Shown here in pieces: positions 18,336 to 58,832 of a stretch of 64,000 nucleotides of DNA; position 1 is the stretch's first letter; each line of letters opens with the position of its first letter. The notes under the pieces are model-generated. The model searched no databases, had not been told where the DNA came from, and saw only the letters and a list, made by a program, of their open reading frames with translations. Source of the DNA: Acetobacteraceae bacterium (GTDB lineage: Bacteria > Pseudomonadota > Alphaproteobacteria > Acetobacterales > Acetobacteraceae). The stretch is from positions 1-64,000 of the forward strand of contig PLSD01000030.1 in NCBI GenBank assembly GCA_003164135.1, written 5' to 3'. The translations under genes were made by a program, and so were the position numbers.

Positions 18336-18350
18336 AATTTTTGTCTTCTC

Positions 18351-18397
18351 CTTGATTAGATAGTATTTAGATATATCTAAATGCAATCTAAGTCAAG
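18351..18397. promoter_or_regulatory. palindromic operator candidate upstream of the padR gene
   Basis: A perfect 18-bp palindrome ATTTAGATATATCTAAAT lies at 18365-18382. It is flanked by an outer imperfect dyad (CTTGATTAGAT on the left, ATCTAAGTCAAG on the right). It sits 30 bp upstream of the regulator's ATG, as expected for autoregulation by a dimeric PadR protein. Confidence 0.6.
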
Positions 18398-18581
18398 GGG
18401 GGAGTTTTGGGATGGGTGAGGTGGCAATTGTGCAAACGGCGTTTCCATGAAAGTGCCCAAAGCTGTCTTAGCTGCCGATTAATAGTAGACTAGGTTATCG
18501 CTAGCCGGTGAATGGATGCCCGGAAAGGGTAGACATCTTCGACGCTTATGCCCCATACACCAATTCAAAGGGGCGAATTAT

Positions 18582-19412
18582 ATGGCGAAACGAACTGGCG
18601 GAATTTTGCCGTTCTTAAAGTGGGCGGGCGGAAAGCGCTGGCTTTCTTCGGCTTTAACCCCGTATTTGCGCGAGTGCCGTGGTACGTATTTTGAACCCTT
18701 CCTAGGTTCTGGAGCCATCTTCTTCGACCACCTACCCCAAGTGGCACACTTATCAGACACCAACGACGATCTAATTGAGTGCTATGAGGTGATGCGGGAT
18801 CAGCATGAAATTGTTGAGCGGGAGTTGAAGGTTCTCGCGAACCGGGAGCCAGATAAGTACTATTATGACGTGCGTGCGGAACGGCCTTCATCTGCGGCCG
18901 GACGGGCGGCTCGCTTCATTTATCTGAATCGAACCTGCTGGAACGGCCTCTATAGGGTAAATCTCAAGGGCGAATTCAACGTTCCCCGCGGTACCAAGAC
19001 CCAGATAATACTGCCGACAGACGATTTTTCGAAGGTCAGTCAAGCGCTTAAGGCGACCACGCTGAGAACTTCCGACTTTGCGGACACAATCTCGATGGCC
19101 GGAAGGGGTGATGTTGTCTTCGCAGATCCGCCTTATACTGTTGCCCACAACATGAACGGATTTGTGAAATATAATCAGAAGATTTTTGGGTGGGACGATC
19201 AACTGCGTCTAGCGAGTGCGCTAAAAGATGCGGCCAAAAGGGGTGTACTGGTAATTTCGACCAATGCGGACCATCCGGAAGTAAAGGCACTTTACGAGCC
19301 TATTTTTGAGGTTCAATCCATAGCTCGCGCGAGCATTATCGCTGCGGCGTCGGGCAATAGGCGCAAGACCACAGAGCTTTTTATTACTAACTCGGCAATG
19401 GTGGGCGTATGA
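18582..19412 (+). CDS. D12-class DNA adenine N6-methyltransferase (Dam family)
   Basis: About 276 aa. The start at 18582 follows AAAGGGG at about 10 nt and gives the family N-terminus. Motif order is that of Dam/DpnM enzymes: X-like LPFLKWAGGKRWL, motif I FEPFLGSGAIFF, and motif IV DPPYT. GATC methylation would be the family default, but the specificity is not shown. No restriction endonuclease gene adjoins it. Base composition is AT-richer than the flanking genes, suggesting transfer. It overlaps the next gene by 4 nt (ATGA). Confidence 0.92.
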   Translation: MAKRTGGILPFLKWAGGKRWLSSALTPYLRECRGTYFEPFLGSGAIFFDHLPQVAHLSDTNDDLIECYEVMRDQHEIVERELKVLANREPDKYYYDVRAERPSSAAGRAARFIYLNRTCWNGLYRVNLKGEFNVPRGTKTQIILPTDDFSKVSQALKATTLRTSDFADTISMAGRGDVVFADPPYTVAHNMNGFVKYNQKIFGWDDQLRLASALKDAAKRGVLVISTNADHPEVKALYEPIFEVQSIARASIIAAASGNRRKTTELFITNSAMVGV

Positions 19413-19987
19413 GCATGTCTAAGAGTCGGCTCGAGAAATTTCCCATATTAAAGACACTCGTTGTATGTCCTGAAATTTCTAAACAACACGCTCGGATAGA
19501 GCTCCTCTGGACAGTTGGCTTTGCATTTGTCGCTATACCAATTGTGTTTATCATTACGTTGTATACCCGACCGCTGCAACAAGTACCTGCTCAGTTGTTT
19601 GATGTAGCAAGTCGAGGTGAGTTGATGGTATATGCTATGACGGTTTGTGGGTTGGCTCTTTATAATATTCGCCACAACATCAGCGAAACGATACCGGATG
19701 CATTAAAGCAGAGTGTTACGGAACGCGGGACACTTACCGTTTGGATATCTCTCATTCTGGCCGTCGCTATTATATCATACGTCGTTCGAAGAATGGGTGA
19801 TATAAATAACGTTCAAATCAATGAAAATTTGCTAAACGCAGCGTCGATTGTTGTCCTGATAGCGTCGCTCACATTCGCGTATGTCGTTTTGTCTCTCAAG
19901 TTCGCGCTTAACAGTGGTGCAGTTTCGGCGTCACATGAACAGACTGCAGACTTTGCTAAGACGTGGGAGGCCGAGCGTGACGCTTAA
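19409..19987 (+). CDS. four-helix membrane protein of the methylase cassette
   Basis: 192 aa, not recognised. Four hydrophobic segments are seen: about residues 28-47 (WTVGFAFVAIPIVFIITLY), 66-83 (LMVYAMTVCGLALYNI), 110-127 (WISLILAVAIISYVV) and 145-170 (ASIVVLIASLTFAYVVLSL). The N-terminal ~27 residues and a short charged tail are soluble. Start overlaps the methylase stop and its end overlaps the next gene's start by 11 nt, so all three are coupled. Function is unknown; an effector or anchor role would be speculation. Confidence 0.8.
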   Translation: MSMSKSRLEKFPILKTLVVCPEISKQHARIELLWTVGFAFVAIPIVFIITLYTRPLQQVPAQLFDVASRGELMVYAMTVCGLALYNIRHNISETIPDALKQSVTERGTLTVWISLILAVAIISYVVRRMGDINNVQINENLLNAASIVVLIASLTFAYVVLSLKFALNSGAVSASHEQTADFAKTWEAERDA

Positions 19988-21146
19988 TCTTTCCTATCCT
20001 GTCGATCCCGATAAGATCGTGCTTGATGTAATCGCCTTACGCGCACGTCAACCGATTGGCGACCTCTATTTCGGCTCTATAGACTCCAAAATGTTGGTCC
20101 ACATCACTGACTTTGATGTTAGGCGCGTTATCGAAGAGGAACGCGATGTAGAGCGATATCTTGGCATTCAGCGTCCATTAGATAGAAACCGAGTTTCTCA
20201 GCTCAATAATTATGTAAATTTTATAGATGCAACATTCCCTACTGCGTGTATTCTCGCGATCGACGCAGATTATGCAGATTACGATGAGGATCAAAAGAAA
20301 CTCATAATTAGGAATTACCGTGAAGGTGACGATGAGCCTACGAAGGCGATACGCTACATCGCTAGAGTGCTTGATGGACAGCACAGGATTGCTGGCCTCA
20401 GAAGTTTCACGGGAGACGTTTTCGAAGTGCCGGTCGTTTTTTTCGTTGGAGCAGACTTGGCGGAGCAGGCGAATATATTTTCGACAGTCAATCTTGAACA
20501 GAACAAGGTCGGACGTAGTTTAGCCTATGATCTATTCGCGCTTGCCAAGACAAGAAGTCCACAAAGGCTTGCGCATGAAATCGCGGTCGCATTCGATTCA
20601 GATTCAGCCAGTCCGTTCTATAAGCGCATCAAGCGGCTTGGTGTAGCGACGCCCGGTAGATATCAGGAAACGCTTGCCCAATCGCAATTCGTTGAGGCGT
20701 TGCTCGCGCTCATTACTCGCGATGCGAAAGTTGATCGTGATATACTGCTGCGAGGGAAAGTCATACCCAAACCCTCTGCCGATGAACTAGAGCGGCTTAT
20801 CTTTCGTGGTATGTTTGTAGCTGGACGCGATATTGATATTGCAAAATCGATAGATGCATTTTTTAAAGCTGTTAAGTGGAAATGGCCTGACGCATGGGAT
20901 GCTTTCGGTAAAGGCTTTGTTCTCAATAAGACAAGTGGCTTCAGAGCTCTGATGCGCTTGCTTCGCGAGGTGTATCGGAATCAGTGCGGTCCCAACGAGG
21001 TCCTCACCTTCGATCGGGCTCAGTCTGTAGTTTCGCGATCGACGCTGGAGGGTGATCAGTTCAATACTGATATTTATAAGCCGGGATCTTCGGGAGAAGC
21101 GCAACTGTTCAGAGATTTGCGTGATTCATGCGGGCTGCCTGAATGA
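19977..21146 (+). CDS. DGQHR domain protein (DndB-like)
   Basis: About 389 aa. GTG at 19977 is the start because GTGGGAGG ends 6 nt before it; upstream in-frame codons overlap the membrane-protein gene. The DGQHR motif is in RVLDGQHRIAGLRSF, followed by VPVVFFVGADLAEQANIFSTVN, typical of DGQHR/DndB relatives. DndB is a regulator linked to DNA phosphorothioation systems, but no dndACDE genes are here. AT-rich composition matches the two genes upstream. It is the last gene of the cassette. Confidence 0.85.
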   Translation: MTLNLSYPVDPDKIVLDVIALRARQPIGDLYFGSIDSKMLVHITDFDVRRVIEEERDVERYLGIQRPLDRNRVSQLNNYVNFIDATFPTACILAIDADYADYDEDQKKLIIRNYREGDDEPTKAIRYIARVLDGQHRIAGLRSFTGDVFEVPVVFFVGADLAEQANIFSTVNLEQNKVGRSLAYDLFALAKTRSPQRLAHEIAVAFDSDSASPFYKRIKRLGVATPGRYQETLAQSQFVEALLALITRDAKVDRDILLRGKVIPKPSADELERLIFRGMFVAGRDIDIAKSIDAFFKAVKWKWPDAWDAFGKGFVLNKTSGFRALMRLLREVYRNQCGPNEVLTFDRAQSVVSRSTLEGDQFNTDIYKPGSSGEAQLFRDLRDSCGLPE

Positions 21147-21254
21147 TCGATTAGCCCCATGACAGGAGATGCCAGCGGGCACGGGCATGACCATGATGGA
21201 GTGGAGATGGATTGCTGCGTCGGGGTTCGCGCGGGTCGCGATGATGGCGGCTTG

Positions 21255-21297
21255 CGAGGTATCGGTGGGTTGCGCTTACGCTTACCCGCCCTACGGG
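21255..21297. repeat. short imperfect inverted repeat after the methylase cassette
   Basis: GGTGGGTTGCG and CGCTTACCCGCC face each other in the region between the DGQHR gene and rlmN, resembling common intergenic GGTGGGTT-type hairpins. It could end transcription from either side, but no T-run follows. An ORF drawn across it has no family resemblance. Confidence 0.3.
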
Positions 21298-21322
21298 CTG
21301 CGGCCTGAGTTGGCGGCGCAGG

Positions 21323-22480
21323 TTACGCCGCCGGTTGCACCAGGCTTTTTAGCTGTCCGCAAGCCGCCAAAATATCCTGGCCGCGGGGGGTGCGGATGGG
21401 GGAGGCGTAGCCGGCTTCCATGATGATGTCGGCGAATTTGCGCAGGGCGGCCGGACCAGAAGATTCGTATTTGCTGCCGGGCCAGGGGTTGAAGGGGATG
21501 AGGTTCACTTTCGCGGGCAGGCCGGCGATGAGGTAGACCAGGGCGCGGGCGTCGGTTTCGGAATCGTTGATGCCTTTGAGCATGATGTACTCAAAAGTGA
21601 TGCGCCGCGCGTTGGAGGCGCCGGGGTAGCGTTTGCAGGCGGCGATGAGGTCTTTGATCGGGTATTTGCGGTTCAGCGGCACCAGCTCGTCGCGCAGATC
21701 GTCGCGCACGGCGTGCAGGGAGACGGCGAGGTTGACGCCGAGTTCGGCGCCGGCCTTGTCCATCATGGGGATGACGCCGGAGGTGGAGAGGGTGATGCGG
21801 CGGCGCGAGAGGCCGATGCCTTCGCCGTCCATGACGATCTTCATGGCTTTGGCCACGTTCTCGTAATTATACAGCGGTTCGCCCATGCCCATGAGGACGA
21901 TGGTGGAGAGCAGGCGCGGGGTTTCGCCTTTGGGGCTCGGCCATTCCTTGTAGGCGTCGCGCGCGGCCATGAACTGGCCGACGATTTCCGACGACGAGAG
22001 GTTGCGGGCGAGTTTTTGCGTGCCGGTGTGGCAAAAGCGGCAGGAGAGGGTGCAGCCGACCTGGGATGAGATGCAGACGGCGCCGCGATCTTCCACGCGG
22101 TCGGGGATGTAGACGGTCTCGACCTTCTCGTTGTCACGGAAGTTGAAGAGGAATTTGCGGGTTTCGTCTTTGGAGAGCTGGTCGAGGGCGACCTCGGGCC
22201 GGCTGATGACGAAGCGCTCGGCGAATTTCTCCTGCAGCGGGCGGGCGATGCTGCTCATGGCGGAGAAGTCGCGCACGCCTTGGTGGTAGATCCAGTGCCA
22301 GAGCTGTTTGGCGCGGAAGGGGGCTTCACCCGCCTCGGCCACGGTGGCGAGCAGTTCCTCGCGCGAGAGGCCGACGAGATCGGTCCGGCCGTCGGGCAAG
22401 GTGTTGCTGGGGGGTGGGAAGAGGGCGGCTTTGGCGAGAATGCGCTCGGCGTCAGCGGCGGTGAGGTCGTTCATGGACAT
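21323..22480 (-). CDS. rlmN: 23S rRNA (adenine2503-C2)-methyltransferase
   Basis: A 385-aa radical SAM RlmN. The 4Fe-4S motif is CTLSCRFC (CxxxCxxC, about residue 140). Further family features: SSQVGCTL upstream, VLMGMGEPLYNYENV, and RRITLSTSGVIPMMD. It methylates A2503 of 23S rRNA and A37 of some tRNAs. ATG 22474, which overlaps the upstream stop as ATGA, is an alternative start. Confidence 0.96.
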   Translation of the reverse strand: MSMNDLTAADAERILAKAALFPPPSNTLPDGRTDLVGLSREELLATVAEAGEAPFRAKQLWHWIYHQGVRDFSAMSSIARPLQEKFAERFVISRPEVALDQLSKDETRKFLFNFRDNEKVETVYIPDRVEDRGAVCISSQVGCTLSCRFCHTGTQKLARNLSSSEIVGQFMAARDAYKEWPSPKGETPRLLSTIVLMGMGEPLYNYENVAKAMKIVMDGEGIGLSRRRITLSTSGVIPMMDKAGAELGVNLAVSLHAVRDDLRDELVPLNRKYPIKDLIAACKRYPGASNARRITFEYIMLKGINDSETDARALVYLIAGLPAKVNLIPFNPWPGSKYESSGPAALRKFADIIMEAGYASPIRTPRGQDILAACGQLKSLVQPAA

Positions 22481-54622: not shown

Positions 54623-54796
54623 TTTCTTGAGTAAATAAACAAACGTTAATGCAAAATAAGTAGTTTGGTTCCATTTAACAGAAAATATAATAATCTTTTA
54701 TGGAAAATGAGTTGCTTTGTGGTGTGCATTAGGACCGTATTCCAAAGATTTGCTGCCCGGCATCCCGTTTGCTTGATCCGTGCGGTAAACGATTGT

Positions 54797-54825
54797 TTGA
54801 CAAAATCTTCTAATTTCCGTGTAGT
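54797..54825 (+). promoter_or_regulatory. candidate promoter of flp copy 2
   Basis: TTGACA (54797-54802), 17-nt spacer, TGTAGT (54820-54825). The same architecture with near-identical flanks (TTGACAAAAT and TTTCCGTGTA) occurs at 55630-55658. The pilin ATG is 122 nt downstream, leaving a long leader. Confidence 0.55.
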
Positions 54826-54946
54826 GGCGAACAACCCTAACGGGGTTAATATGTTGGAGGAAACTTTAGATTGTTTTTTCTTTCGTATCTATTCTACGCC
54901 ACTAGCCGTCTTGCCGCGGCATTTTGAACGCCAAAAGGACCCTGCC

Positions 54947-55135
54947 ATGCTCGTCAATTATGTACGCTCCGCCGTCGCTCTCAAGCTCAACGAACTGAAG
55001 TTCGACAAGCGCGCTGTCACCGCGATTGAATACGCGCTGATCGCCTCGCTCATCGCCGTCGTCATCATCGGCGCCGTGACCTCGCTCGGTAAGGGCGTGT
55101 CTGGCACCTTCAACAGCGTCGCATCCGAACTCTAA
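54947..55135 (+). CDS. Flp/Tad pilin, copy 2
   Basis: A 62-aa Flp pilin with the processing region KRAVTAIEYALIASLIAVVI, preceded by AAGGA. It is nearly identical to the next gene at protein and DNA level, with differences clustered near the N-terminus (RSAVALK against RTVLALK). A recent tandem duplication or gene conversion is likely. It forms the structural fibre of Flp pili. Confidence 0.93.
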   Translation: MLVNYVRSAVALKLNELKFDKRAVTAIEYALIASLIAVVIIGAVTSLGKGVSGTFNSVASEL

Positions 55136-55171
55136 TATCTGTCAACGACTCGGGATAGGAAAGGATCTGTC

Positions 55172-55360
55172 ATGCTCGTCAATTATGTGCGCACCGTCCT
55201 CGCGCTCAAGCTCAACGAACTGAAGTTCGACAAGCGCGCGGTGACCGCGATTGAATACGCGCTGATCGCCTCGCTCATCGCCGTTGTCATCATCGGCGCC
55301 GTGACCTCACTTGGCAGCGGCGTCTCCGGCACCTTCAACAGCGTCGCATCCGAACTCTAA
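55172..55360 (+). CDS. Flp/Tad pilin, copy 3
   Basis: 62 aa, almost identical to copy 2 (KGVSGTF becomes SGVSGTF). AGGAAAGGA lies before the ATG, 36 nt after the copy 2 stop, so both probably share a message. A strong terminator follows. The CpaA peptidase encoded downstream would process it. Confidence 0.93.
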   Translation: MLVNYVRTVLALKLNELKFDKRAVTAIEYALIASLIAVVIIGAVTSLGSGVSGTFNSVASEL

Positions 55361-55390
55361 TATCTAAGAGCGTAGCGGCTTTTTGTTAGA

Positions 55391-55423
55391 CAAAACGGCC
55401 GGTGGTCTCCACCGGCCGTTTTG
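55391..55423 (+). terminator. intrinsic terminator after the tandem pilins
   Basis: A 15-bp perfect stem (CAAAACGGCCGGTGG, 55391-55405, with 55409-55423) and loop TCT. The right arm ends in a T-run. It would separate pilin expression from the cpa/tad genes. Confidence 0.85.
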
Positions 55424-56027
55424 CCGTGCGGAGGGGCGGGGCTTAAGGCTGGATTGTGTTGAGGTTCCGTGGAGTAACCACGGCTGTTCGGGGGGCAATT
55501 CAGGTCCCATGTTTGTGTTTCCCAAGGTGCCCTGAGCAACGTATTTTTTTAACTGGAAGCAAGCCAAGGTGTTGCCAGTGTGTCCAACTCCGCCGCATTG
55601 AGATAAGTCAGCGGGACGTGAAAGAATAATTGACAAAATTCCATAAATTCCGTGTATTGCGATGCAACCATAAGAGGTTCACCCGGCAGCACGAAGATTA
55701 AGGTCTCTTTAGGTCTGTTGGCAATCGCGATTGATACGTTGGGGGCAATTTTTGACTGCGGGGCTAGAAAACGATTTTGGAGCACATGGCTGGTTGGCCG
55801 GCGAGTTTAACTGCAAAGGGCTTCTCTTGGCAGCTAGTTCGAGTCGATGTGCTGCTGTCGGCAATAAAACTCCGCGGGCGGGAAGTTTTTTCGATTTTTT
55901 GAGGCTTGTATAGTCTATTGTTACGAAAATACGTTGAATATCTTGGTAAAGATGCAATGATGCAGCCTAGAATTAAGATCGGTTAAGGGGCTTTGCAGGT
56001 AATGGGGCGGTTTTTAGGGGGAAGAAC
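55424..56027. other. non-coding region upstream of cpaA
   Basis: No gene is supported in these 604 bases. It carries the second TTGACA-17-TGTATT promoter-like unit and an AT-rich stretch with T-runs around 55885-55900. Parts resemble the region before flp copy 2, suggesting that it arose by duplication of a pilin upstream region. Confidence 0.5.
55630..55658 (+). promoter_or_regulatory. candidate promoter upstream of the cpa/tad genes
   Basis: TTGACA (55630-55635), 17-nt spacer, TGTATT (55653-55658), similar in sequence and spacing to the unit before flp copy 2. The cpaA start lies about 370 bp downstream, so another promoter nearer cpaA cannot be excluded. Confidence 0.4.
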
Positions 56028-56546
56028 ATGTTGACGGCAGTCCTGGCGATCGGGGCGGCGGGTCTACTGGTTTATGCCGCACTCCACGATCTTGCTGCCC
56101 GGACCGTTCCCAACTGGCTGCCTATAGCATTGCTTTTGCTTGGGCTTTGTGCGCGGCTCAGCGATCACACCCTTTTCAGTGGCCTGATTGTGGCTGGATG
56201 TACGTTCGTGGTGCTCTTCGTTATTTGGCTTCTCGGTGCCATGGGCGGGGGCGATGTAAAGCTCTGGGCAGCCACGGTTCTATTGATCCCCCCCCTGTTG
56301 CAGCCTGAGCTGGATTTCTTCCTCCGAGTCGTGGTTTTCGGCGGCGTTCTAGCTGTTCTGTATCTCTCACTAGGTCTGTTTGTGAGTAAGCCAAAGGGGG
56401 CGCATGGTGGCGGTCTGCTGCGGCGGCTGCTCCGCGCGGAAGCCTGGCGCATCAGCAAACGGGCGCCGCGGGCACCGCTGCCTTATGCCTGCGCGATCGC
56501 TAGTGGTGCTATCGTGACCCTCTTACCTCTTTCCTTACAGCGTTAG
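56028..56546 (+). CDS. cpaA: prepilin peptidase CpaA/TadV (A24 family)
   Basis: A 172-aa polytopic aspartyl peptidase. The catalytic Asp residues sit in HDLAARTVPNW and in MGGGDVKLWAA (GxGD motif). AGGGGGAAG precedes the ATG. It cleaves the Flp leader. Residues after ~120 are basic with a C-terminal helix. Confidence 0.92.
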   Translation: MLTAVLAIGAAGLLVYAALHDLAARTVPNWLPIALLLLGLCARLSDHTLFSGLIVAGCTFVVLFVIWLLGAMGGGDVKLWAATVLLIPPLLQPELDFFLRVVVFGGVLAVLYLSLGLFVSKPKGAHGGGLLRRLLRAEAWRISKRAPRAPLPYACAIASGAIVTLLPLSLQR

Positions 56547-56553
56547 GTAGAAC

Positions 56554-57393
56554 ATGGTTTTCCGTCTGGGAATATTTGGGGTTCTGGTCGTGGCGCTGAT
56601 AGCGGTTGCGCTGTTCGGCCTCTCCATCCTGAATCAGTCGAAGCAGCAGCAAGCCATTGCGCCGCCGGCGACTCAACAAGTTTTGGTCGCTGCCGCGCAA
56701 TTGCAGGCTGGCAGCCTGTTGCAACCCACCGATGTTTCCGCGGCAGCCGTCCCAGTCAATGGCCTGCCGGCTGGTGCCGAGCAAGACACGCCGCAAAACC
56801 GGTCGGCGCTGCTCGGCGCCATGGTTCGCACCTCGATTGCGCCTGGAACACCCATTCTGGATACGGCGGTGATTCACCCTGGGGACCACGGTTTTCTCGC
56901 GGCGGTGTTGCTGCCTGGCATGCGGGCGGTTACGGTTTCCGTGGATTTGATCTCGGGCGCTAACGGGCTGATCTGGCCAGGCGATAATGTGGACGTTCTG
57001 TTGACTCAGACCATCGCGGGCGCGCCGGACGACAAAAGCATCGCCGCTGAGGTTGTACTGAGCGATGTGCGTGTCATCGCCACCGGCGCTGAACTTATCA
57101 AGAACGCCCAAGTCGACGTTAACGGCACGGAACCCGCCCGGACTGTGACCTTGGAGGTGACGCAAGACCAGGCGGCGCGTTGCCTGGTTGCGTCCAATCT
57201 CGGCAAATTGTCACTGATTGTGCATTCATCACAGGCGCAGGCTGGTGCGGCACAGATCAACCAGCCGCTGCCACAGCCGGTCTGGTCCGGTGATGTCTCG
57301 CCAGCTCTGGCCAATCAGCATCCCTCCGTGCCTCAGGTTTCTACCGTCAAAGTATTCCAGGGTACCCCCAGCGAACAGGATTACAGTTTCTGA
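56554..57393 (+). CDS. cpaB: Flp pilus assembly protein CpaB/RcpC
   Basis: 279 aa with an N-terminal helix (GIFGVLVVALIAVALFGLSIL) and a SAF-like domain (VLVAAAQLQAGSLLQPTDV). RcpC/CpaB domain features: GMRAVTVSVDLISGANGLIWPGDNVDVLLTQ. It is a periplasmic part of the Tad channel. Its stop overlaps the cpaC start. Confidence 0.92.
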   Translation: MVFRLGIFGVLVVALIAVALFGLSILNQSKQQQAIAPPATQQVLVAAAQLQAGSLLQPTDVSAAAVPVNGLPAGAEQDTPQNRSALLGAMVRTSIAPGTPILDTAVIHPGDHGFLAAVLLPGMRAVTVSVDLISGANGLIWPGDNVDVLLTQTIAGAPDDKSIAAEVVLSDVRVIATGAELIKNAQVDVNGTEPARTVTLEVTQDQAARCLVASNLGKLSLIVHSSQAQAGAAQINQPLPQPVWSGDVSPALANQHPSVPQVSTVKVFQGTPSEQDYSF

Positions 57394-58832
57394 TGACCGC
57401 CCCAGCAAAACGCGGATACCTTCGACTCGTCCTTACGGCTGCAATCGGGCTTGCCCCCGCACTGGCCGCGGCGCAGCAACAACCAACCCCGCTTGACGGT
57501 TCGGCATCTCCGGGCGTCTCCCAACAGGTAACAACCGTGGCGCCGGCTGTTTACAGTGGCATTACTGTGAGCGAGGGTTCGGGCAAGCTGGTTAAATTGC
57601 CACATGTGGTCGCCAATATCTTTGCCGCGGATCCGAATGTTGTTGAAGTTCGCCCCGCAAGCCCCGACACGATGTTCGTGTTTGGCAAGAAATCCGGGAA
57701 CACCACGATTGTCGCCACCGATACGGCGGGCAACCCCATTGTCCAGTATTCGGTTACGGTGAATCCCTCACTGTATAACGCGCAGAGGCTACAATCTAAG
57801 TCTCAAGGGGCCGCTCCCGGCAGCAGTGTATCCGCTGAGACCGAAGTGGGAGGCATGGTTGTAAGCGGTACGGTGCAGACGCCCGAACAGGCCAACAACG
57901 TTATGGAACAGGCCAAGCTGATTTCGCCTGGCACGGTGGTTAATGACCTGCAGGTACAGGAGCCAATCCAGGTCGAGCTCAAAGTTCGTATCGCGGAGAT
58001 GTCCCGTACCACTACCCGCGAACTGGGTATTGACTGGGGTGCCGCTACGGCTTCCGGTTTCAAGATCGGTAGGTTTCTGCTGACAGGCCAGACAGGCTCG
58101 GCGGCAGCCTCACTTTCCCCGGCGATTCAGGGGTCGCTCGGCGTCACCTTCCCGGGGGGCACGTTTGAGGGCGTTATCGATGCGCTGGCCACGGATAATC
58201 TGGCGCATATCCTGGCTGAACCAACGTTGACGACACTCAGCGGCACGCAGGCAAGTTTCCAGGTCGGTGGTCAGTTCCCAATCCCGGTCAGCGAAAGCAA
58301 CGGCGAGGTTACCGTCTCATTTAAAAATTATGGTGTGCTGCTAACATTTACCCCCACCGTGTTCTCCGATGGCCGCATATCCCTGCAGGTCGCGCCAGAA
58401 CTCAGCTCTCTCAGTACGGCGAATTCGGCAATTGTTTCTGGTAGTGGTTCGACTTCTGTGCTCGCAGTGCCGTCGCTTAACGTCACGGCCGCGTCAAGCA
58501 CGATTATCCTGGGCAGTGGGCAAGGTATGGCCATCGCCGGGTTGCTGGAGGATAATACCAACCAGGTCGATAACGGGGTGCCGGGGTTGAGCGAGGTGCC
58601 GCTGCTTGGCGCTTTGTTCCGTGGCGATGCTTTCCAGCGTGAGCAACAGGAACTTGTGATTACGGTTACGCCCTATCTGGTCAACCCCGTCAGCAATCCG
58701 GGGCTGCTGGCCTCACCTGATGATGGCTGGACGCCGGCGAATGACTTGCAGCGCATTCTGTTGTTGCGTGATAATGGTACCAACATGGCCAGCACGACGA
58801 TTCCGGGTGATGCCGGGTTCATAGTTCAGTGA
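57393..58832 (+). CDS. cpaC: Tad secretin CpaC/RcpA
   Basis: A 479-aa type II/III secretin. Signal peptide LRLVLTAAIGLAPALAAAQQ, pilus-N domain GKLVKLPHVVANIFAADPNVVEV, BON-like middle and secretin domain with QFPIPV, FKNYGVLLTFTP and PLLGALFRGDAFQREQQELVITVTP. ATGA overlap with cpaB. It forms the outer-membrane pore. Confidence 0.95.
   Translation: MTAPAKRGYLRLVLTAAIGLAPALAAAQQQPTPLDGSASPGVSQQVTTVAPAVYSGITVSEGSGKLVKLPHVVANIFAADPNVVEVRPASPDTMFVFGKKSGNTTIVATDTAGNPIVQYSVTVNPSLYNAQRLQSKSQGAAPGSSVSAETEVGGMVVSGTVQTPEQANNVMEQAKLISPGTVVNDLQVQEPIQVELKVRIAEMSRTTTRELGIDWGAATASGFKIGRFLLTGQTGSAAASLSPAIQGSLGVTFPGGTFEGVIDALATDNLAHILAEPTLTTLSGTQASFQVGGQFPIPVSESNGEVTVSFKNYGVLLTFTPTVFSDGRISLQVAPELSSLSTANSAIVSGSGSTSVLAVPSLNVTAASSTIILGSGQGMAIAGLLEDNTNQVDNGVPGLSEVPLLGALFRGDAFQREQQELVITVTPYLVNPVSNPGLLASPDDGWTPANDLQRILLLRDNGTNMASTTIPGDAGFIVQ

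Follow-up and report, generated by a model that had tools for sequence, protein, structure and literature searches.

DGQHR proteins, which belong to the DndB superfamily, are already known to associate with Dnd systems (PMC3226654, in the portion of the article open to us), and DndI has been described as a ParB-superfamily reader of the DNA mark that acts through its ATPase (PMC11662687, accessible part). Among the ParB-CTPase fold proteins with a switched nucleotide, binding of both ATP and GTP has been reported for a DndB-like member (PMC12704722, available excerpt). Here we describe a cassette in which a DGQHR protein is joined to a DNA adenine methylase and a small membrane protein, located in a 64,000-nucleotide stretch of an Acetobacteraceae genome (GenBank assembly GCA_003164135.1, contig PLSD01000030.1, positions 1 to 64,000; hereafter the window). 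We show that the trio consists of real genes forming a conserved mobile unit that occurs in prophages and on plasmids as well as in chromosomes. Judged from sequence, phage defence is its probable function, and we lean towards a mobile restriction-modification (R-M)-like defence module in which a mark-reading ParB-fold switch would trigger a membrane effector. The features of the window copy are as follows.

18582..19412, plus strand: D12-class Dam-family DNA adenine-N6 methyltransferase, 276 residues (TIGR00571, PF02086)
19125-19136, plus strand: DPPY motif codons of the methylase, intact
19409..19987, plus strand: small membrane protein by hydropathy, 192 residues, proposed effector
19977..21146, plus strand: DGQHR (DndB-superfamily) protein, 389 residues from GTG 19977 or 402 from ATG 19938
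20373..20387, plus strand: DGQHR motif codons (residues 132-136, row of alignment A4), invariant in 24 of 24 aligned homologues
18400..21323: inserted segment, ends approximate; its neighbours are rlmN and a PadR-like gene, as labelled by eye

Several described systems share parts of this arrangement. As in type II R-M of the DpnII/BglII kind, a Dam/DpnM-like methylase is the presumed self-marker on mobile DNA, and related pairs of membrane protein and DGQHR protein lie near BglII/BstYI-family restriction endonucleases on plasmids; unlike in those systems, no restriction endonuclease was recognised by eye in the window cassette, where membrane and ParB-like proteins take that place. A BglII model, the only endonuclease family searched, found nothing in the window's genome (G000), and the same model matched no control genome either. 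With Dnd/Ssp (DndB, DndI, SspE) the cassette shares a ParB-superfamily protein with a DGQHR/DGQQR motif near a DNA-marking module, but it has a methyl writer instead of DndCDE, and no HNH domain was found. Membership in Dnd itself was rejected: DndC (TIGR03183) and DndD (TIGR03185) had no match at E 0.001 in the same genome, control runs giving matches below the cut-offs only (in 5 and 9 of 14 genomes), and the cut-offs of TIGR04172 and DndB were not reached. The switched-nucleotide ParB-CTPase fold proteins resemble the DGQHR protein in fold and P-motif, but the trio is not described in the available part of that work (PMC12704722).

The original prediction, made from the window's letters alone, had placed three plus-strand genes here, and open reading frames at 18582-19412, 19409-19987 and 19977-21146 bear it out, including the ATGA overlap of methylase and membrane gene at 19409. 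The 11-nt overlap given for 19977 presupposes GTG 19977 as start codon of the DGQHR gene; the in-frame ATG 19938 would lengthen it to 50 nt. The cassette is indeed AT-richer than its neighbours, at 48.4% GC against 60.9% for the whole window; its third codon positions are 50% GC, where those of four neighbours range over 79-86%. The highest AT content for any 2,565-bp stretch in the window is also reached here. The membrane protein had been called four-helix: three segments are clear from hydropathy and a fourth, weaker one is probable, and homologues vary, with 3-6 hydrophobic segments at a looser threshold and 2-5 at a stricter one among 24 of them. A GEL..Y motif surrounds the second segment. 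As had also been stated, no endonuclease, dnd gene or integrase adjoins the cassette, none being recognised by eye among the open reading frames of 14-26 kb (read without a family scan of the neighbours). No other defence genes and no mobile-element genes were recognised beside it by eye, and the cassette stands alone in a chromosome-like stretch.

The methylase scores 221.4 bits against TIGR00571 (Dam; cut-off 114.85) and 147.7 bits against PF02086, its DPPY is invariant in 25 of 25 aligned rows, and its closest solved relatives by sequence are DpnM and EcoDam, DpnM (2dpm) being nearest to the methylase profile A3 at E 2.5e-71. The DGQHR protein exceeds the cut-offs of TIGR03187 (180.5 bits against 58.85) and PF14072 (DndB; 38.5 against 29.1) and carries the QR, DGQHR and FxxxN motifs of its family, a set as in PMC4619093, with Q64-R65, D132-R136, F167 and N171 invariant. 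It falls short of the narrower families DGQHR_dnd_1 (TIGR04172; 159.8 bits against 450), DndB (TIGR03233; 13.1 against 328) and DpdB (NF041060; 70.6 against 300). The protein has a predicted ParB/sulfiredoxin (Srx) fold: in the AlphaFold2 model (mean predicted local distance difference test score 80.9) the N-terminal half is ParB/Srx-like and the C-terminal half helical, and ParB, Noc, KorB, PadC and Srx top its structural alignment, above unrelated rows. Its profile found no match among PDB sequences at E 1. The membrane protein reached no family cut-off in Pfam or NCBIfam, had no PADLOC match at E 1 and drew only weak rows in PHROGs, from families of unknown function; when four membrane proteins were scanned against PADLOC 2023, three had no match and the fourth a chance-level one (E 0.042).

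The trio recurs well beyond the window. A scan of genome contigs returned six DGQHR relatives of 51-71% identity, titled Alphaproteobacteria (two), Sphingomonas, Rhodobiaceae, Phycisphaerales and Candidatus Binatia, and all six loci read, in the same order, methylase (52-57% identical), membrane-protein open reading frame, DGQHR gene. It is therefore not a chance grouping, since the same gene order recurs in other phyla. By BLAST, the membrane proteins of L002 and L003 are similar and those of L005 and L006 weakly so; those of L004 and L007 were identified from their position and hydropathy. No restriction endonuclease was recognised among the open reading frames read at these six loci, where the BglII type was the one searched. 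Among viral contigs, 21 loci were found (19 without two near-copy pairs), all 21 with the methylase and 20 with the membrane gene; the exception, L019, is cut at a contig end, the methylase of L032 was seen through its longer copy L134, and L033 has its DGQHR gene split in two. The apparent near-copies L030/L031 and L023/L035, judged by length, position and score, are each counted separately in these tallies, and so are L158/L159 and L169/L170 in the viral methylase search described below. The methylase lies upstream and co-directional in 13 of the 21 viral loci and is convergent downstream in 8. With start codons of our choosing, all 23 loci compared have membrane gene and DGQHR gene no more than 20 nt apart, and in 21 of them the two overlap. 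For the 23 loci common to all three protein sets, Spearman correlations of protein distances were 0.38 for DGQHR and methylase, 0.49 for DGQHR and membrane protein and 0.23 for methylase and membrane protein, values reached in 0, 0 and 5 of 500 permutations, respectively. A check of synteny across many genomes, proposed with the original prediction, thus finds the trio together, with its middle gene in place in 6/6 genome and 20/21 viral loci.

The window copy is an AT-rich insertion of about 2.9 kb, absent from close relatives in the same genus. In the nearest of them (L037, genome G009, RlmN 95% identical) homology ends at window position 18399 and restarts at 21324, with 73 bp between the two sides against ~2.9 kb in the window. 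A search for RlmN matched 34 of 37 genus genomes and returned 30 loci, 29 besides the window's own, and cassette DNA matched the window's own locus only. Fourteen of these 29 short loci also contain a match to the PadR region: the homology sides are ~45-75 bp apart in four (L037, L038, L039, L041), the gap is partly masked in L040, and 0.7-1.0 kb of other sequence lies between them in the remaining nine. Because 15 of the 29 have no PadR-region match within the flank, the PadR/rlmN setting is kept only among the closer relatives. Comparison of the two insertion flanks revealed no direct or inverted 9-14-bp repeats. A search of 60 relatives with the cassette protein P0003 gave nothing at E 0.001, and one of 384 further genomes of the class with the cassette profile A1 gave nothing at E 1e-20. 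The trio is rare, with 2 of 398 phylum genomes bearing it, the window's own included. The earlier idea of a self-contained mobile module agrees both with this patchy presence and with the co-occurrence of the three genes around a central membrane gene. Just outside the insertion, at 18341-18399 and upstream of the PadR-like gene, lies a palindromic TTAGATATATCTAA-like stretch kept in several same-genus relatives, possibly the operator of that gene.

The methylases linked to DGQHR proteins form one dedicated clade. In a maximum-likelihood tree of 59 methylases, a 100/100 branch sets 29 DGQHR-linked ones (27 from trios and 2 from other architectures) apart from 30 other Dam-family members; the trios alone are not one clade, since the two methylases from other architectures branch within or next to them. 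Among the best 80 of 264 relatives in a viral methylase search, a DGQHR gene was in the flank of 38 of 45 loci at 43% identity or more and of 0 of 35 at 41% or less, the line being placed at a gap in the list. A methylase match of E 1e-50 or better was obtained in 31 of 398 phylum genomes; the three highest-scoring, at 358-428 bits, are all DGQHR-linked, the other 28 score at most 222 bits, and none of the 27 with a locus to inspect (G719 had none; flanks up to 1.5 kb) has a DGQHR profile match in its flank, although in one of the 27, L100, a frame fits the loose pattern DG[QH][HQ]R with no profile match. On plasmids (2,442 records), 5 of the 25 methylase matches listed exceed 50% identity, and all five records, four of them near-copies from Zymomonas, bear a DGQHR gene; four plasmid controls at 32-41%, from Marinobacter, Geobacillus (AlwI), Streptococcus (type II restriction endonuclease) and Fels-2, have none. 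The window's genome holds a second D12 methylase elsewhere (L067, contig C38, 216-914; PF02086, 79.5 bits).

Within this clade the partners change. The 38 DGQHR-linked viral loci, again from the best 80 of 264, comprise 26 with a membrane protein and a ~390-residue DGQHR protein (one membrane gene being cut off), 6 with a fused DGQHR protein of 775-813 residues and no membrane-profile match, and 6 with a DGQHR protein of ~500-540 residues beside a protein of 424-448. The seven close viral methylases that have no DGQHR gene in the flank are L141, L147, L164, L132, L155, L163 and L173. Coordinates of two alternative layouts are:

L138 4305-6629, L142 1099-3498 and L076 838-3123: long fused DGQHR protein, ~760-800 residues, beside the same methylase clade, with weak nuclease-like matches in the N-terminal part and, in L138, a HEPN-like C-terminus
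L141 4301-7625, L147 4319-7733 and L164 4270-7636: ~680-residue HerA-like protein and ~445-residue protein, replacing DGQHR

A DndB domain is present in both long fused proteins scanned from the viral set (L138, L142). The former also has PADLOC matches to CARF_PDDEXK in its N-terminal part and PDC-M34B in its C-terminal part and a weak HEPN match; the latter shows only weak matches besides, and a NERD match below cut-off was obtained for L076, which comes from the genome sample. DUF87/HerA was found in the ~680-residue protein of L147, which was scanned, and its counterparts in L141 and L164 look alike by eye; the ~445-residue protein had no Pfam family above cut-off in L147 and no Pfam match at all in L164. 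L132 retains a protein that by eye resembles the ~430-residue one, L155 has a phosphoesterase ~0.5 kb from the methylase, and the locus of L173 is cut. One marker enzyme thus goes with nuclease-like, HerA-like, unassigned or membrane partners, as would be expected if effectors were interchangeable. Accidental neighbours are ruled out by synteny together with the single methylase clade and these partner counts. On plasmids, the layout of DGQHR protein, ~430-residue protein and adenine methylase was seen in Zymomonas pZZM405 (L087 3509-7171) and in Rhizobium tumorigenes (L088 3509-7434).

This variety of partners also bears on a quite different role, in which the cassette would be a segregation or retention module that stabilises prophages and plasmids by means of a membrane-tethered ParB-like DNA clamp, methylation marking the site. 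Noc is a membrane-binding relative of ParB; the ParB/Noc fold matches of the DGQHR protein and the presence of cassette relatives on plasmids and viral contigs would suit such a role. Nuclease-like and HerA-like partners of the same methylase clade do not, nor does the window copy, which lies alone in a stretch that looks chromosomal and beside which reading by eye, without a search aimed at ParA, recognised no mobile-element gene; we regard retention as very improbable.

Some of the viral-contig loci are clearly prophage. An integrase adjoins the trio in L021, L024 and L034, a portal gene lies near L028, and a second D12 methylase and a TPR protein were seen in L015 and L018, respectively (ten viral neighbour genes were scanned with Pfam, that of L016 giving nothing). 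In L020, L029 and L033 a CI/S24 repressor stands directly upstream of the membrane-protein and DGQHR genes, which is the position of rexAB. The RexAB systems of lambda and Pseudomonas putida, for which a DNA-binding sensor with a membrane partner is established (PMC12894663, accessible text), are by analogy the nearest working counterpart of the mechanism proposed below. Superinfection exclusion of this type could even operate independently of methylation, the DGQHR protein sensing phage DNA or DNA-protein complexes and opening the membrane protein; the methylase would then have a separate task for the prophage, such as shielding its DNA from host restriction. The convergent methylase genes in 8 of the 21 viral loci would permit such separate transcription. 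An independent passenger would not be expected, however, to form one methylase clade with three DGQHR architectures; the cassette differs from RexAB in its ParB-like sensor and linked methylase, Pfam at E 1 listed no RexB row for the membrane protein, and we consider this explanation unlikely. A phage core gene was also considered and rejected, P0003 having no match in 50,697 phage records and its homologue from L022 three weak ones; L022 had no DNA match in 5,426 E. coli genomes, a search that would miss diverged copies.

The pair of membrane protein and DGQHR protein extends beyond the trio, to loci with other DNA-marking systems. Twenty-three plasmid records had a DGQHR match, and in 12 of the 18 opened (all except H3, H10, H20, H21 and H22) a protein with at least three hydrophobic segments at the looser threshold is encoded directly upstream of the DGQHR gene: a Roseateles trio, four BglII-type loci and seven Dnd-type loci. 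The others opened include H14 and H15, with a two-segment protein of 260-273 residues, H18, with one of 145 residues, H19 and H23, with the layout of DGQHR, ~430-residue protein and methylase, and the unannotated record H12. All seven Dnd-type loci encode, directly upstream, a protein of 171-228 residues with at least four segments (looser threshold), annotated only as hypothetical, at spacings from a 4-nt overlap to 77 nt apart; six of the seven have annotated dnd/dpt genes in the flank, H17 being the one without. In the phylum sample, five of five TIGR04172 matches (two over the cut-off, G670 at 377 bits and two trios at 151-160 bits) likewise have a membrane-protein frame upstream. In three near-identical rhizobial plasmid loci and Acinetobacter pTR3_1 the pair lies within a few kb of a BglII/BstYI-family restriction endonuclease and another methylase, and the membrane proteins of the BglII-type loci match the trio's membrane profile at E 6e-16 and 9e-20. 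The hint at DndB and phosphorothioation in the original prediction was therefore apt in an unexpected way, since such pairs also occupy dnd loci. On Ri plasmid pRiA4 (L008 4336-9215) the pair has both an MT-A70 methylase and a BglII/BstYI-family endonuclease nearby. In the filamentous Pf phage PfAC19 (L123 3366-5345) a DGQHR gene and a hypothetical gene lie just behind the repressor.

The DGQHR protein could also be a modification accessory, like DpdB or DndB, that targets or controls the methylase, with the membrane protein merely anchoring it and epigenetic control of prophage or host genes as the outcome. DndB represses its own operon (PMC4507180) and DpdB has been described as an ATPase for base insertion (PMC12839542), both according to the accessible parts of these reports, and the DGQHR protein does match the DpdB model, though at 70.6 bits, below the cut-off of 300. 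The writers that the pairs adjoin are nevertheless chemically different (Dam type, Dnd, and in proximity a BglII-type R-M), and members of the same methylase clade have HerA-like neighbours where the flank lacks a DGQHR gene; an accessory role seems to us improbable. A bolder reading, which we hold to be less likely than not, is that membrane effector and ParB-fold nucleoside triphosphate (NTP) switch are a portable pair, able to plug into adenine methylation, phosphorothioation and BglII-type R-M alike and attacking the cell's own membrane in response to unmarked DNA, with no nuclease involved; this would be a new class of modification-gated immunity.

For the cassette itself, the defence module towards which we lean would work as follows. 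The Dam/DpnM-like enzyme would methylate adenine, probably at GATC or a close relative of that site, and so mark resident DNA. The DGQHR protein, acting as a nucleotide switch of ParB/sulfiredoxin fold whose C-terminal domain is helical, would load on DNA and tell whether it is marked or unmarked, a decision gated by NTP binding or hydrolysis. As to the direction of gating, unmarked incoming DNA would most likely keep the switch active, and the active protein would open or insert the translationally coupled small multi-span membrane protein, which would then damage or depolarise the membrane so that infection is aborted. That the cassette marks DNA and uses a membrane effector, as first predicted, is something we still infer from its sequence. 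If correct, the scheme would extend R-M beyond DNA cutting, coupling DNA-mark-based recognition of self and non-self to membrane abortive infection, and would give DGQHR proteins, including those annotated as 'DNA phosphorothioation-associated', a role testable jointly with the membrane partner gene. The trio as a modification-based defence would be a credible route to something categorically new, and its methylase clade could be used to find further effector types.

The trio is apparently undescribed so far. No description of it, or of the membrane partner of Dnd-type DGQHR proteins, was found in the accessible portions of open-licence literature, supplements excluded, in agreement with the earlier statement that no described system has this exact set. 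The available text of a 2024 reappraisal of Dnd (PMC10853773) has 'transmembrane' and 'membrane' once each and '4TM' nowhere, and the accessible main text of a paper on P2/P4 hotspots (PMC9122126) lacks 'methyltransferase', 'DndB' and 'ParB'. Elsewhere in the window, at 54665-58832, an AT-rich dip near two tRNA genes opens a run of genes resembling, by eye, those of Flp/tight-adherence pili (pilin, prepilin peptidase, CpaB, CpaC).

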